A DNA stretch of 20,158 nucleotides from a virus. The translations under genes were made by a program, and so were the position numbers. Position 1 is the first letter of the stretch. Each line of letters begins with the position of its first letter. The notes beneath the pieces were generated by a model that saw only the letters and a program-made list of their open reading frames with translations, had not been told where the DNA came from and made no database searches. This document shows positions 4,445-12,290 of this stretch, piece after piece. The stretch lies in the IMG/VR virus record IMGVR_UViG_3300028025_000367, positions 1-20,158 of that record; one strand, given 5' to 3'.

Positions 4445-4776
4445 GACAGTTCGCTTTCATCCCACATCCAGTTGCCTTCAGGCTTAGGAGTAGGTGGCTG
4501 CCAGTCATGGTTGCTATCTAAAGTCCAAGAAGGAAATGGTTGTGGAGAAAAAAACACATCTGCCTCAGCATCATATGCGTACCCAATTCCTGCATATGTC
4601 TTACGAAAGTTTGAGTGATACGAAGTCTGCAACCATTCACCGCCTAAACCAATAGAAGCAATAAACGCTTGACCTATTGGTTCTGATTCAGGGAACTCAC
4701 CACCACCGCAATCTGCGTTATTAACCACGATTACTTGTGTAACGATTCCGTTTGATATTTCTGCAAAGTGTGCCAT
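4420..4776 (-). CDS. Small protein associated with tail-fibre genes
   Basis: This is a 118-residue soluble protein. The N-terminal half has the pattern MAHFAEISNGIVTQVIVVNN, then GEWLQTSYHSNFRKTYAGIG. The C-terminal half is rich in Pro and Trp (PQPFPSWTLDSNHDWQPPTP) and ends with NWMWDESELSW. I recognise this as a type of protein recurrent beside tail-fibre genes in aquatic phages, without an assigned function. The ATG overlaps the upstream stop by one base (TAATG), and its end overlaps the start of the secreted PA14-like gene by 25 bases. It may be a fibre chaperone or a tip component; neither is shown. Confidence 0.75.
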   Translation of the reverse strand: MAHFAEISNGIVTQVIVVNNADCGGGEFPESEPIGQAFIASIGLGGEWLQTSYHSNFRKTYAGIGYAYDAEADVFFSPQPFPSWTLDSNHDWQPPTPKPEGNWMWDESELSWVEVPVG

Positions 4777-5525
4777 TAGAAAGTAATGCTCCCTGAACCT
4801 GTAAATGTATATACATGATAACCAGCACGAGATACCGCACTGTAAGTTGGCGAACCAGTAGTTGCTGTTGCCTGTTTGTAACTCTGTGAATATGCAACAA
4901 CGACAAGACCAGAACCACCTGCACCTGCTGTGGCGTTTGATACTGCCTGTGTTCCACCACCACCGCCACCCGTATTCACTGTTCCTGATGTTGCCAATGT
5001 TCCTGCTGTACCAGCACCGCCACCACCTGCGCCTCCAGCGCCTGGAACTGCACCACCACCGCCACCGCCACCACCACGCTGAACAGATGAACCTGTAATG
5101 CTGTCAAAGAAACCTGCACCACCACCAGCGTTCTGACCACCACCAGCACCACCTGTATAAGTTGCGCCAGTTCCACCAGAAACTCCAGAAGTTTGTGTGC
5201 CACCTGAAGCGCCAGTAACGCTCACACCAAATGTTGAAGTATTGCCAGTTCCTCCACCGAGTGGACCAATGTAGTTGTTGCCTGCTGTTCCACCACCACC
5301 AACAGTGACAGTGATTGCAGAGCCAGCCGTTACAGCATACGAAGTGCTTTTTGAACCACCCGAACCTGCACCGCCACCACCGTTCGTGATTCCAGTGTTT
5401 CCTGCTGCACCACCACCACCGCCAGCGATAACAAGATATTCAACAGTTGGTGGTGCTAAATAAACCAATCCATTACCAACCCAAGTACCGACAACTGTTG
5501 ACGGTCTAGTGCGTGAACCTCTCAT
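4776..5525 (-). CDS. Glycine-rich adhesin-like tail protein (second copy)
   Basis: The 249-residue protein is dominated by glycine runs. After about 28 residues it has the EYLVIAGGGGGAAG motif. A long Gly/Ala/Ser/Thr region with several GGGGG blocks follows, then SITGSSVQRGGGGGGGG, a VVVAY strand, and a C-terminal segment (YHVYTFTGSGSITF) that looks like a beta-strand end. Phage tail-tip adhesins with polyglycine-II helices have this composition, so a host-receptor-binding role is inferred. It is clearly related to the neighbouring 302-residue protein, with the same EYLVIAGG start and SITGSSV block. It starts by an ATGA overlap with that gene. The GC-rich antisense ORF in this stretch is a by-product of Gly codons. 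Confidence 0.82.
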   Translation of the reverse strand: MRGSRTRPSTVVGTWVGNGLVYLAPPTVEYLVIAGGGGGAAGNTGITNGGGGAGSGGSKSTSYAVTAGSAITVTVGGGGTAGNNYIGPLGGGTGNTSTFGVSVTGASGGTQTSGVSGGTGATYTGGAGGGQNAGGGAGFFDSITGSSVQRGGGGGGGGAVPGAGGAGGGGAGTAGTLATSGTVNTGGGGGGTQAVSNATAGAGGSGLVVVAYSQSYKQATATTGSPTYSAVSRAGYHVYTFTGSGSITF

Positions 5526-6430
5526 TTGATTACGCTCACAGTAGTTGCACCTGTAGAAGTAAATGAATGAATTGTGTACACACCAGAAGTAGTTATTGTT
5601 CCACCGCCAACAGAAATACCTGCAGCCGTTGCATCTGCTGTGAGATAACGAAAGATCACAACACCTGAACCACCTACACCACCAGCCTGATTGCTTTGGC
5701 TTGCACCTCCACCTCCACCACCGCCAGTATTCACTGTGCCTGCAACACCTGTTTGGTTTGCTGGCGCACCAGCACCACCACCACCAGCACCGCCTGCACC
5801 ACCACCGTTGTCTCCTGCACCACCACCACCGCCACCACGAGTGACAGATGAACCTGTAATAGACGAGGAAACACCTGCACCACCAGCACCGCCAATGATT
5901 CCTGCTGAACCATTAGAACCAACAGCACTAGCACCGCCACCGCCACCAGAAGCATAAGTGCCTGGATTATTTCCACCTGCACGACCTTGATCAGTTGTTC
6001 CTGCTGCACCCGAGGAAGCACCAAGAGTTCCTATTGCACCACCACCAGAACCACCTGTACTTACTGCAGCGAATAAACCACCACCACGACCACCGCCAGT
6101 TGATGTGATTGTTGAAAGACCAGAACCAGCAATAGAACTATCTGAACCGATTGCGTTAGTCGCACCACCAGCACCAACAGTCACCGTATATGTGATACCT
6201 GCGGTAAGCGTTATCGGTGCTTCTGCACTTGCACCACCACCTGAACTTTCAGCGAGTGCTGAACTGCGATAACCGCCAGCACCACCACCGCCACCATTTG
6301 ATGTTGCGTTACTTCCAACACCGCCACCACCGCCACCTGCGATAACTAAATACTCAGCAAGTAGAACAGGGTTTAGCCAATTCTTTGTGTACTGATTAAC
6401 CCTGTTACGAGTATCCCAACGAAGCGTCAC
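5522..6430 (-). CDS. Glycine-rich adhesin-like tail protein (first copy)
   Basis: The 302-residue protein opens with a Trp/Asn-rich segment (MTLRWDTRNRVNQYTKNW) and then LLAEYLVIAGGGGGG. A long series of Gly/Ala-rich blocks follows, including SITGSSVTRGGGGGGAG and VNTGGGGGGG, then a GSGVVIFRY strand and a C-terminal beta-like module (GVYTIHSFTSTGATTVSVIK). The start is GTG at 6430, supported by AGGCGG seven bases upstream. A role at the tail tip in receptor binding is inferred from composition and position downstream of minor tail genes. The N-terminal segment may attach it to the tail, as it differs from the otherwise similar neighbour. Confidence 0.82.
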   Translation of the reverse strand: MTLRWDTRNRVNQYTKNWLNPVLLAEYLVIAGGGGGGVGSNATSNGGGGGAGGYRSSALAESSGGGASAEAPITLTAGITYTVTVGAGGATNAIGSDSSIAGSGLSTITSTGGGRGGGLFAAVSTGGSGGGAIGTLGASSGAAGTTDQGRAGGNNPGTYASGGGGGASAVGSNGSAGIIGGAGGAGVSSSITGSSVTRGGGGGGAGDNGGGAGGAGGGGAGAPANQTGVAGTVNTGGGGGGGASQSNQAGGVGGSGVVIFRYLTADATAAGISVGGGTITTSGVYTIHSFTSTGATTVSVIK

Positions 6431-8380: not shown

Positions 8381-10864
8381 CTATGCGACCTTAAGTGGTA
8401 GCGCACCATTTCTGCGCTGATAACGGGTCAGTACATCTACGATTTCGTCACCGAGTTTTGCAGGATCAGTACCCATGCCAGCGTTGATTGTGACATTAAC
8501 TGTCATGCCTGACTGCAATTTGTCTAATGGGATAACTGCTTCTGCTCCAGCCTCACCGATCAACGCTGCAGTTGGACTAGTAACAATTCCACCTTGTGCA
8601 AGTGCGACCAAAGTTCCAGCCTTGTAGTCGGCAAATAGTTTCGGGAACTTTTCTTTTGAGTCAGCAATAGGCGTTGATGATTTCAATGTCTTGCTATTTG
8701 GGTGCAACGCTTTAACGGCATCCAAAAATGAACCATATGAGGCACTTGGTTTTGGTGCTACACCAATCTGTGTTTCTGCTGCCGTAGCATCTCCAGCCTT
8801 AACACCTACTCGTGCTGCTTGTGCTTTTTCCTCAGCCTCACGCAAACGATCCGTTGCTTCAGTTTGTCGTTCAATCGCTTCAGTGACAGCATCAGTTGCA
8901 TCTACCTGTGATTTCTTAGCGTCATTCAATCTGTCAAGCGCTTCTGTGTATGCGTCACTTCCTTCCTTCGCACCATTAATCGCTTCATCCAAAAGAATCT
9001 CTGCCTCAGTAAGCGCATCAGTAGCCTCAACCTGTGACTCGGTTGCATCCCTCACACCTAGTTTCGCTTCAGCAAGCGCAATCTCTGCCTCACGAATAGT
9101 CTGCGCAGATGATTCTGGGTCAAGACGAACTGCAGCAAGATCTTGCTCTGCTCTAGTTACAGCGAAAACTGAACTCTCAACATCGTAACCAGCCTTTTCA
9201 ACAGCACCCTGAGCCTTACGCAAAGCGACCTGACGATCCTTAGCCTGCTTACTATTAGCACCATATCCACCAACCACTTGATTGAAATATGCCTGTGCAT
9301 CAGTAAGTTTCAATGTTGCCTCAGCAAGACTCGTGCGAGACTTCAGCAAAGACTTGTCAGCATCACGAGCAGACTTCTGTGCCGAACTCATCCCCTTAAG
9401 TGCATCAATGTATTTCTGTAGTTTTTCTCCAGCAGTCTCAACTGTTTTTGCTGCACCACTAGCACCATTACCAAGACCAGTAAATGGTGGATCTTTTTCA
9501 TCCTCCTTCTTTGTTGCTTTGACCTTTGCTCCAAAACCTTCGTATTTCATATTCAACGCTTCAATCTTTGCGCCTGCTTTGTCGGCTGCCTTACCAATAC
9601 GCCCGAACTGAACTTCACCGATCTTGCCGATTTCAGTCAGACCTGCACCAAAAAAGTTTGCAGCCTTGATTAGAAAGTTGATTCCCGTGATGATCGCATT
9701 AATAACTGTGATCCAAGCGTTCAGCCAGTTCTCAATGATTCCAATAATGAAGTTGATAACAGAGTTAATGACCTTGCGCACGACCTCAAACTTCAGATAC
9801 AGGGCAACTGCTGCAACACCCAGAGCAATGATGCCTGCGATTACTAAACCGATAGGGCTATTAAATAGAGCCACATTAAACAAGTTCTGTGAAATTGTTG
9901 CAGCGATAGTTACCAAACGAATCGTTGTGAATACTGCAGCAAGAGCGAGCAAAACATTTCCGAACGCACCCATATTTGTTGTGAGGTTCACAAAGTCACC
10001 TGCCAACATTTTGATGCCAGCACCTAAACCATTTTCACCAATCACATCGGCAAGTTTGTTGAGATATGGAACGACCTTCTGCACAACAAAGTCTGCAAAC
10101 TTTTCTATGTAAGGGATAAGGATCGCACCGAACTCCTCAGCGACATTGCCCATCGCAACCCTCATTCGGTCAAAACCTGTAGCAGTTGCTGCAGCCGTAC
10201 CACCGACCTGCGATTCAACTTCAGCGAGGATCAACTTCTGTGCACCTAATACATCCCCAGACTGCACAAGTGTTTTGATCTGTTCCTTCTGCTGGTCAGT
10301 GAAGTTGATACCTGCACGGCGTAGTGCGCTGATTCCTTTTTCTGGGTCACTCAAAGCCTTGCCGAGTTGCATTGCTGCAGCATCAGCCGAACCGAAAACA
10401 TTTCCCAGATCTTGAGCAGTAATTACTGCACGATCAAATATGTTGTTGCCTTCACCGACCTGATTCTGAACCTGCTTAAAAGTTAGCAATAGGTTCGCAG
10501 ATTTTTGGATTAGTTCATCATCCACACCAATCTGCATGGAAAGTTTTTCAGATAAATTGGAAATCTGTGTAGCAGTAACATTCGCTGCACCACCCGTAGC
10601 CTTGATGATCGCTTCTGTTTGAGCCATAACTTTCTGTGACTCATATGCAGCCGAAGCCAACTTGAAACCAATAGCACCTGCAGCAACAGCGACACCTGCA
10701 GCAACCTTTCCAACAGTCTTAAGTGTGTTGGTCATCCCCTTATCAAAGGTGCGCAAACCGAAGGTGGCTTTGTTTCCTGCGCCCTCTAGTTTTTGGAAAT
10801 CCTTAATAGCCTTGCTGATGCCCTTACTGTCAAAGGTGCTTACTATATTTACGCCAACTGCCAT
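8381..10864 (-). CDS. Tape measure protein
   Basis: The 827-residue protein is the longest gene in the window and follows the tail chaperone pair, the standard siphovirus position. The N-terminal 250 residues are helical, with a short hydrophobic stretch near 50-70. A hydrophobic region of several segments lies at about 295-395 (LLALAAVFTTIRLVTIAA, IGLVIAGIIALGVAAVALYL). Residues about 490-720 are a long charged coiled coil with internal repeats (SQVEATDALTEAE, SQVDATDAVTEAI). Near the C-terminus is AALIGEAGAEAVIPLDKL, a motif widely seen at the end of tape measure proteins. No lysozyme or peptidase motif is visible. At about 1.5 angstrom per residue, the length predicts a tail of roughly 120 nm. 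Confidence 0.95.
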   Translation of the reverse strand: MAVGVNIVSTFDSKGISKAIKDFQKLEGAGNKATFGLRTFDKGMTNTLKTVGKVAAGVAVAAGAIGFKLASAAYESQKVMAQTEAIIKATGGAANVTATQISNLSEKLSMQIGVDDELIQKSANLLLTFKQVQNQVGEGNNIFDRAVITAQDLGNVFGSADAAAMQLGKALSDPEKGISALRRAGINFTDQQKEQIKTLVQSGDVLGAQKLILAEVESQVGGTAAATATGFDRMRVAMGNVAEEFGAILIPYIEKFADFVVQKVVPYLNKLADVIGENGLGAGIKMLAGDFVNLTTNMGAFGNVLLALAAVFTTIRLVTIAATISQNLFNVALFNSPIGLVIAGIIALGVAAVALYLKFEVVRKVINSVINFIIGIIENWLNAWITVINAIITGINFLIKAANFFGAGLTEIGKIGEVQFGRIGKAADKAGAKIEALNMKYEGFGAKVKATKKEDEKDPPFTGLGNGASGAAKTVETAGEKLQKYIDALKGMSSAQKSARDADKSLLKSRTSLAEATLKLTDAQAYFNQVVGGYGANSKQAKDRQVALRKAQGAVEKAGYDVESSVFAVTRAEQDLAAVRLDPESSAQTIREAEIALAEAKLGVRDATESQVEATDALTEAEILLDEAINGAKEGSDAYTEALDRLNDAKKSQVDATDAVTEAIERQTEATDRLREAEEKAQAARVGVKAGDATAAETQIGVAPKPSASYGSFLDAVKALHPNSKTLKSSTPIADSKEKFPKLFADYKAGTLVALAQGGIVTSPTAALIGEAGAEAVIPLDKLQSGMTVNVTINAGMGTDPAKLGDEIVDVLTRYQRRNGALPLKVA

Positions 10865-10868
10865 AGGG

Positions 10869-11423
10869 TTATCCGTTCAATCGCTTCTGTACTTCACCAT
10901 CAATCTTACGAATTGAAATCTCAACTGCTTTCTCAATCAGTGGCAAATGTTTTTCGGTTGCTGGATACATTACACGGGAACGATATTTACCCTGTCTCGT
11001 CTTAACCTTCAGATGCTTGTCAAGATTCGCAACAAACTTTTGACCAGCACTAGCACGTGACCCACGAGCGCCACCGATGTTAGATCCAGCCGTGTCATAC
11101 ACCTGACCACCTGCATCAGATTGTTGCAAACGAATCAAACCATGCTGACCCACCCCTGTTGGTTTCTTAGTAGATACAGCGACACGAACCTTGTTCTTTG
11201 CCTTAGCACCGTTGTATTCAGGCATTCGTGATTTGCCTTTACGACCTCCAGATGTGTGCCAATTCATTAACGGTTCATCAGGGAACTCACGACCTACGGC
11301 ATCGGCTGCAGGCTTTGCAGATGTTTTCAGATCTTTCTCAATAGTGGTATATGCCTCACGCTCATACTTGCGCAACTCTGCAAGAGTCTCACGCACACCA
11401 TATACATCAAAGTTCATAGCCAT
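10869..11423 (-). CDS. HK97 gp10-like / tail completion-like protein
   Basis: The 184-residue basic protein begins MAMNFDVYGVRETLAELRKY, which matches the start of HK97 gp10-like head-tail or tail-completion proteins (a short strand followed by a long helix). The middle is Lys/Arg/Gly-rich (TSGGRKGKSRMPEYNGAKAK) and the C-terminus has long helices (PLIEKAVEISIRKIDGEVQK). gp10-like proteins normally sit between the adaptor and the major tail gene; here the gene lies between the tail chaperones and the tape measure gene. Function is inferred at family level only. The ATG at 11423 follows the TAG of the frameshifted chaperone by 15 bases and has a weak ribosome binding site. Confidence 0.65.
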   Translation of the reverse strand: MAMNFDVYGVRETLAELRKYEREAYTTIEKDLKTSAKPAADAVGREFPDEPLMNWHTSGGRKGKSRMPEYNGAKAKNKVRVAVSTKKPTGVGQHGLIRLQQSDAGGQVYDTAGSNIGGARGSRASAGQKFVANLDKHLKVKTRQGKYRSRVMYPATEKHLPLIEKAVEISIRKIDGEVQKRLNG

Positions 11424-11438
11424 AGTGTGCCGATACTA

Positions 11439-11854
11439 CTACCGCCTACGATTAGCCCGTTCAGCCTTCTTGGTCAGATAGTCCAACATGACTTGAATCA
11501 TCACATCACTTTCGGCTAATAATGCTGAAGGTGCAATACCTGTTTCGCAGGCTAGGAAGGCAACGATCCAATGTGCGGAGTCGTCACCTAGTCGGCTTTT
11601 GGGGTTTCTACTTCCTCACGGATCTCAACCGTAGCGACAGTGTTAATCCAGTCTGGATCAAACTTCAGACTTGTTTTGCGTGTACGAGTCTCACTATGCC
11701 AAGCGAGCCATGCGAGGTCAGTTAAACGGATCTCTGTCTCAAAGCGTGCAACAGAGCGTGACCATGTTCTCTCAAATGAAACAAAGTCAGCGAACACTGC
11801 ATCCACTTCAGATTTCGTACCGTCATTGAACTCAACTGTTAATGCAATTTTCAT
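11439..11854 (-). CDS. Tail assembly chaperone, -1 frameshifted long product (gpGT type)
   Basis: This is the long form of the chaperone. Translation starts at 11854, reads 86 codons in the zero frame through ..ETPK, slips back one base on CCCAAAA (11597-11603), and continues in the -1 frame from AGC (11597-11595) for 52 codons to TAG at 11439-11441, giving 138 residues. The -1 extension starts SRLGDDSAHWIVAFLACETG and ends in a basic helix (YLTKKAERANRRR). It has no good start codon of its own near its beginning, and no stop interrupts it after the slip site. A long chaperone made at a minor level, next to the tape measure gene, is the classical siphovirus arrangement. It guides tape measure and tail tube assembly. 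Confidence 0.85.
11588..11854 (-). CDS. Tail assembly chaperone, short product (gpG type)
   Basis: This is the 88-residue zero-frame product that ends at TAG 11588-11590, five codons into the region of the slip site. The sequence starts MKIALTVEFNDGTKSEVDAV and contains LTDLAWLAWHSETR, a Trp-rich helix typical of the short chaperone of actinophages, then ends EETPKAD-like residues. AGAAGGAG six bases before the start gives efficient translation. In known siphoviruses the short form is the major product and binds the tape measure protein with the long form. The gene lies between the major tail gene (11886-12290) and the tape measure gene region, exactly where expected. Confidence 0.85.
   Translation of the reverse strand: MKIALTVEFNDGTKSEVDAVFADFVSFERTWSRSVARFETEIRLTDLAWLAWHSETRTRKTSLKFDPDWINTVATVEIREEVETPKAD
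11597..11603 (-). promoter_or_regulatory. -1 programmed ribosomal frameshift site CCCAAAA
   Basis: In the zero frame the codons read ACC CCA AAA GCC. The heptamer C CCA AAA fits X_XXY_YYZ with X=C, Y=A, Z=A. Slipping by one base gives CCC AAA AGC and opens a 52-codon frame. The zero-frame stop TAG is only two codons after the site (GCC GAC TAG). I did not find a clear downstream stem-loop by eye. Confidence 0.85.
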
Positions 11855-11885: not shown

Positions 11886-12290
11886 TTATGCAGTTGTCTT
11901 GACCAGAGTTCCACCAGTGAAGGTGAGGGAAGTCATTGCCAATTCGCCAACAGCACCCGATACAGGTGTGTGACTTGACAGGAATGTTCCCGTTACGGTG
12001 TAGAGAGGATTCGTTGCGCTAGTTGCTGCTGCACTTGGGCGAACAGTAACACTCGTCTGTTGTCCGACCAACGGGTAAATCGTTGCTTCAACATTCGCTG
12101 CAACAAAATCTTGCATGAACTCAATCGTAATCGTGTTGTTTTGCAGACCACCAACGAAAGAACGGTTACCGCCAAACGCTGTTACTTCAACTGATTCAAC
12201 TTCGTAGTTGAGTTCAACAGAGTTTGCCCTGTTGCTAAGCACCACACCATTGACGGTGATATCAGCATTTGTGAGAACTAATTGAGCCAT
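11886..12290 (-). CDS. Major tail protein (tail tube)
   Basis: The 134-residue protein is beta-rich and Thr/Val-rich. It starts MAQLVLTNADITVNGVVLS, then VELNYEVESVEVTAFGGNRS, a pattern of immunoglobulin-like or tube-type tail proteins of actinophages. The end (MTSLTFTGGTLVKTT) is a strand. Position right before the tail chaperones is the canonical place of the tail tube gene. The start ATG has AGGAAAAA upstream with a spacing of about nine bases. It should form the tail tube around the tape measure protein and end at the tail-terminator-like protein. Confidence 0.88.
   Translation of the reverse strand: MAQLVLTNADITVNGVVLSNRANSVELNYEVESVEVTAFGGNRSFVGGLQNNTITIEFMQDFVAANVEATIYPLVGQQTSVTVRPSAAATSATNPLYTVTGTFLSSHTPVSGAVGELAMTSLTFTGGTLVKTTA

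Follow-up and report, generated by a model that had tools for sequence, protein, structure and literature searches.

A very probable programmed -1 ribosomal frameshift at a CCCAAAA heptamer in the tail assembly chaperone gene of IMG/VR virus IMGVR_UViG_3300028025_000367

Previous studies of the lambda tail assembly chaperones G and GT (Levin 1993; Xu 2004, 2013, 2014; review PMC5009743) described two overlapping frames between the tail tube and tape measure genes, which give a short and a long product because some ribosomes slip by -1 at an XXXYYYZ heptamer shortly before the first frame ends. The short product of lambda binds the tape measure protein, while the extension binds the tube protein (PMC5009743). 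Tail assembly chaperone frameshifts collected by SEA-PHAGES form the PRFect training set of 2,397 annotated cases, which concern the same gene as the one described here and a similar site near the zero-frame stop, but come mostly from high-GC soil actinophages and in many cases lack the XXXYYY motif (PMC10274946) that is universal in the family of our virus. Two individual phages are closer. In Pontimonas phage phiPsal1, genes 016/017 (MG835450) have G and T domains homologous to ours (G 45% identical), with the second domain in the -1 frame, the tail tube gene upstream and the tape measure gene downstream; its slip site, unlike ours, is AAAAAAA immediately 5' of the stop. The phiPsal1 record lists two hypothetical proteins without an annotated frameshift, and the 217-aa gene 017 begins inside the T region. 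In Gordonia phage Schiebs (MN234213), the T-like gp14 lies in the -1 frame, overlaps the end of gp13 and stands directly before the tape measure gene; unlike our locus, it has a GTG start and no perfect heptamer at the junction.

The window analysed here is the whole 20,158-nucleotide stretch, positions 1 to 20,158 of the virus record, and its tail genes show the arrangement of lambda, with two overlapping frames, predicted short and long products and a heptamer close to the stop of the first. The features, in the order of transcription, were as follows:

11886..12290, minus strand: tail tube (major tail) gene (phrog_4574 major tail protein, E 9e-22)
11588..11854, minus strand: zero-frame gene, G-like tail assembly chaperone (putative short product), 88 aa, an open frame
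11597..11603, minus strand: slippery heptamer CCCAAAA in phase C_CCA_AAA, from the sequence, with an in-phase heptamer in 131/131 unique relatives
11588..11590, minus strand: zero-frame stop TAG, two codons past the heptamer
11439..11597, minus strand: -1 frame extension (T-like domain), 52 codons plus TAG at 11441-11439, supported by pN/pS and by 190/190 loci
11439..11854, minus strand: predicted frameshift fusion, 138 aa (GT-like long product)
10869..11423, minus strand: 184-aa gene between chaperone and tape measure, possibly HK97 gp10-like (weak Pfam match; conserved place)
8381..10864, minus strand: tape measure gene, 827 aa (phrog_27166 tape measure, E 4.8e-26)

A ribosome-binding-type sequence, AGAAGGAG, lies 5' of the ATG of the zero-frame gene (11854-11588), and CCCAAAA (11603-11597) is followed by GCC GAC TAG. 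The original prediction had placed the end of an 88-codon zero frame two codons past C CCA AAA, and had a -1 slip open exactly 52 codons up to the TAG at 11441-11439, giving a 138-residue fusion that stops 15 bases before the next ATG (11423); the sequence agrees with it in every coordinate. Base 11597 is re-read in the first codon of the extension, and a stop closes the -1 frame 21 nt 5' of the slip. Such a site is rare within the window, whose genes contain 18 in-phase XXXYYYZ heptamers per 6,303 codons; only 3 of these 18 have a -1 frame that passes the zero-frame stop, by 52 codons at CCCAAAA (11603-11597) and by 14 and 16 codons at the other two.

The order of tail tube, chaperone, next gene and tape measure is conserved. 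Among testable loci, the tail tube gene was upstream of the chaperone in 115/125, the tape measure gene downstream in 89/106, and the 184-aa gene kept in place in 80/122. Also upstream of the chaperone are a 56-aa gene and a tail terminator gene (phrog_17840), and the tape measure gene has in addition a Pfam TMP_2 match slightly under its cut-off. The position between tail tube and tape measure genes that had been proposed for the chaperone was thus borne out, although the chaperone does not adjoin the tape measure gene, since the 184-aa gene (11423-10869) intervenes. This extra gene before the tape measure and a downstream hairpin in the window's clade distinguish the locus from lambda, as does the heptamer itself (CCCAAAA vs GGGAAAG); no sequence relation to lambda was detectable. 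HK97 gp10-like tail completion genes usually lie between the head-tail adaptor and tail terminator genes. For the 184-aa gene (10869-11423) there are weak signs of such an identity: a weak Pfam HK97-gp10_like match in 2/34 relatives and, in a second fold comparison, a match to the SaPI1 tail completion protein with a Z of 4.7, which is too low to use alone; the first fold search (Foldseek) gave no significant match. In phiPsal1, gene 017 (our locus L082, MG835450 11169-11822) has its annotated start inside the T region, and its true start may be further downstream. Elsewhere in the window, at 4776-6430 on the minus strand, we observed two adjoining, very glycine-rich predicted proteins of 249 and 302 aa, both with EYLVIAGGGGGG, which are probably tail fibre-like and encoded by duplicated genes.

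The G domain had no significant match in Pfam, PDB sequence or PDB fold searches. Its predicted structure is confident (pLDDT 88), and the best viral-model matches of the fold were unnamed phage proteins. As the predicted G fold has no counterpart among solved structures, it is position and architecture that carry the assignment of a chaperone role. To these is added a distant match to an annotated chaperone: Schiebs gp13, named tail assembly chaperone by others, matches the G profile with E 2.4e-6 in that locus. Taken together, position, gene architecture and this match support the identification of the window gene as a tail assembly chaperone. Moreover, the G proteins matched phrog_6889, a group of unknown function, in 40/48 members, which suggests that the function of phrog_6889 is that of a tail assembly chaperone.

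Relatives were gathered with the fusion and three relatives as queries, and with the phiPsal1 record added, which gave 190 loci with a G domain, the window included, and 131 unique loci once duplicates were taken out. The queries held both domains, so a bias to two-domain loci is possible, but most of the patterns used came from the G domain. The T domain followed the G domain in 190/190 loci. The original prediction would fall if related phages lacked the heptamer and the open -1 frame; instead, all 131 unique loci had an in-phase XXXYYYZ heptamer within the overlap and 130 of them had the T domain in the -1 frame. The heptamers were CCCAAAA (70 loci), AAAAAAA (37), CCCTTTG (20) and CCCTTTA (4), and elsewhere in the same genes XXXYYYZ occurred at 10 per 10,725 codon positions, about 1 per 1,000 codons. 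The base ahead of CCAAAA was C in all 70 CCCAAAA members, whose kinship makes the counts interdependent; CCA AAA was preceded by ACC, GCC, TCC, GTC, CCC, GAC, AGC or TTC, that is eight codons for seven amino acids, and codons ending in C make up only 2-38% of those used for these residues elsewhere in the gene. On the tree of G proteins, which is short and has many unresolved forks, the heptamer type changed about five times and was lost zero times. The sole exception in frame is locus L089, in which, compared with its sister L090, one base is missing just after the A7 heptamer (L089:3228-3240); this looks like a one-base deletion, either a sequencing error or a real mutant.

The extension also evolves as a coding sequence. 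Among 37 members of the window's clade, the zero frame had a pN/pS of 0.09; the extension had 0.15 when read in -1, compared with 1.33 and 1.88 in the other two frames. Purifying selection on the extension DNA is confined to the -1 frame, and therefore the extension is a translated protein domain. We considered that this domain might be a separate protein made from its own start codon, by translational coupling at the overlap and with no fusion. Schiebs has its second domain annotated in this way, as a separate gene with a GTG start and a 4-base overlap, and an ATG, GTG or TTG is present in the -1 frame near the junction in 34/131 unique relatives. No such codon is present there in the other 97/131, and the window's -1 frame has none before codon 31 of the 52, as the original prediction of a fusion called for; therefore, independent initiation cannot make the extension of the window. 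A separate start would also leave unexplained why all relatives have an in-phase heptamer and why its only replacements are other heptamers, and we regard such a start as very improbable.

Frameshift sites of the XXXYYYZ class usually, but not obligatorily, have a stimulatory structure 5-9 nt past the heptamer. The original prediction had reported no obvious stimulatory hairpin, which proved wrong for the window's clade, as the following feature begins 7 nt past the heptamer:

11558..11589, minus strand: downstream hairpin of 13 pairs with one bulge, AGGTGACGACTCCGCACATTGGATCGTTGCCT, found by folding (-14.3 kcal/mol alone)

The window sequence gave a hairpin z of -2.0 against dinucleotide shuffles, and with synonymous codon resampling, in which the protein is kept, 29/32 unique clade members were past the 5% point (mean z -2.42). 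We also aligned 48 members of the window's clade and the AAAAAAA group without gaps: 87% of the cells form pairs, and doubly changed cells number 40, where shuffles give 12.5 and slid controls 4 to 24, with the caveat that kinship inflates the counts and that the hairpin was first spotted in these same sequences. For these two reasons we grade the hairpin as likely real and limit it to the window's clade and part of the AAAAAAA group. A hairpin common to the whole family was not supported: the 92-aa sister clade has the same CCCAAAA and no downstream hairpin signal (mean z +1.04, synonymous resampling), and most CCCTTT members have no such signal either, although a perfect 8-pair hairpin lies 6 nt past the slip in three or four of the CCCTTTG members. 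An upstream Shine-Dalgarno-like stimulator is an optional feature of -1 frameshift sites. The window has GAGGA about 10 nt 5', which we rejected as a stimulator: its anti-SD pairing does not exceed that of synonymous resamplings, and its position is not kept in the 92-aa clade. In loci of that clade (L042, L043 and others), where the downstream hairpin is absent, GTGGGTGCAGACCC about 20 nt 5' of CCCAAAA could form a small hairpin including the slip-site CCC.

The longer frame could in principle be reached by RNA polymerase slippage, with one base added to the transcript, instead of by slippage of the ribosome. Runs of seven A can cause transcriptional slippage, and 37 relatives have such a run, 36 of them in one kind of site; the window, however, has only CCCC then AAAA, and the CCCTTTG relatives have single-base runs of at most three. 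In every case the heptamer stands in the codon phase that tandem tRNA slippage needs, and a downstream hairpin at 7-nt spacing fits pausing of a ribosome, so that we consider polymerase slippage even less probable than a separate start. The least credible explanation of all is a chance heptamer beside a -1 frame that is open at random or left over from decay, or one gene split through a sequencing error. It has nothing in its favour save the L089 exception resembling a one-base deletion, and is already refuted by conservation, with the same split in 130 independent unique contigs and purifying selection in the -1 frame.

We therefore return to programmed -1 ribosomal frameshifting, which very probably produces two forms of the tail assembly chaperone, as in lambda gpG/gpGT. 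Most ribosomes would halt at the TAG at 11590-11588, having made the 88-aa short form, while a minority would slip -1 from CCA AAA onto CCC AAA, taking the Pro and Lys tRNAs along, and read 52 more codons to give the 138-aa form. The analysis itself shows the sequence anatomy, the conservation of slip site and frame, the coding selection in -1 and the hairpin signal; the slipping, its rate and the partners of the two proteins are inferred. In the window's clade, the 13-pair hairpin 7 nt past the heptamer probably makes the ribosome pause and slip more often. If the products act as in lambda, the short form would coat the tape measure protein, and the part added in the long form would recruit tail tube subunits, both being putative binding partners. 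Against this reading stand the predicted G fold, for which the search of solved structures gave no match, the 92-aa sister clade without the hairpin, and Schiebs without a perfect XXXYYYZ near the junction.

The observation is essentially ordinary, because tail assembly chaperone genes are well known for programmed -1 frameshifting (PMC5009743; PMC10274946), and what is new here is the gene-family assignment and the exchange of slip-site types inside one homologous family. A limited literature search found no relevant paper on CCCAAAA in phage frameshifting. As a wider reading, we put forward, with confidence evenly divided for and against, that this is one homologous chaperone family in which -1 frameshifting and its rate have been held while the heptamer (CCCAAAA, AAAAAAA, CCCTTTR), the distance to the stop (0 to 24 nt) and the downstream hairpin turn over clade by clade.

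Through the analysis, a family that is nameless in databases (phrog_6889; phiPsal1 016/017 hypothetical) acquires a suggested function and a correct gene model; the long product of each member would escape ordinary gene calling. The nearest cultured relative of these phages infects a coastal actinobacterium. Further, the family forms a natural series, in which the slip-site sequence, the stop distance and the hairpin vary while the protein and the frame remain constant.
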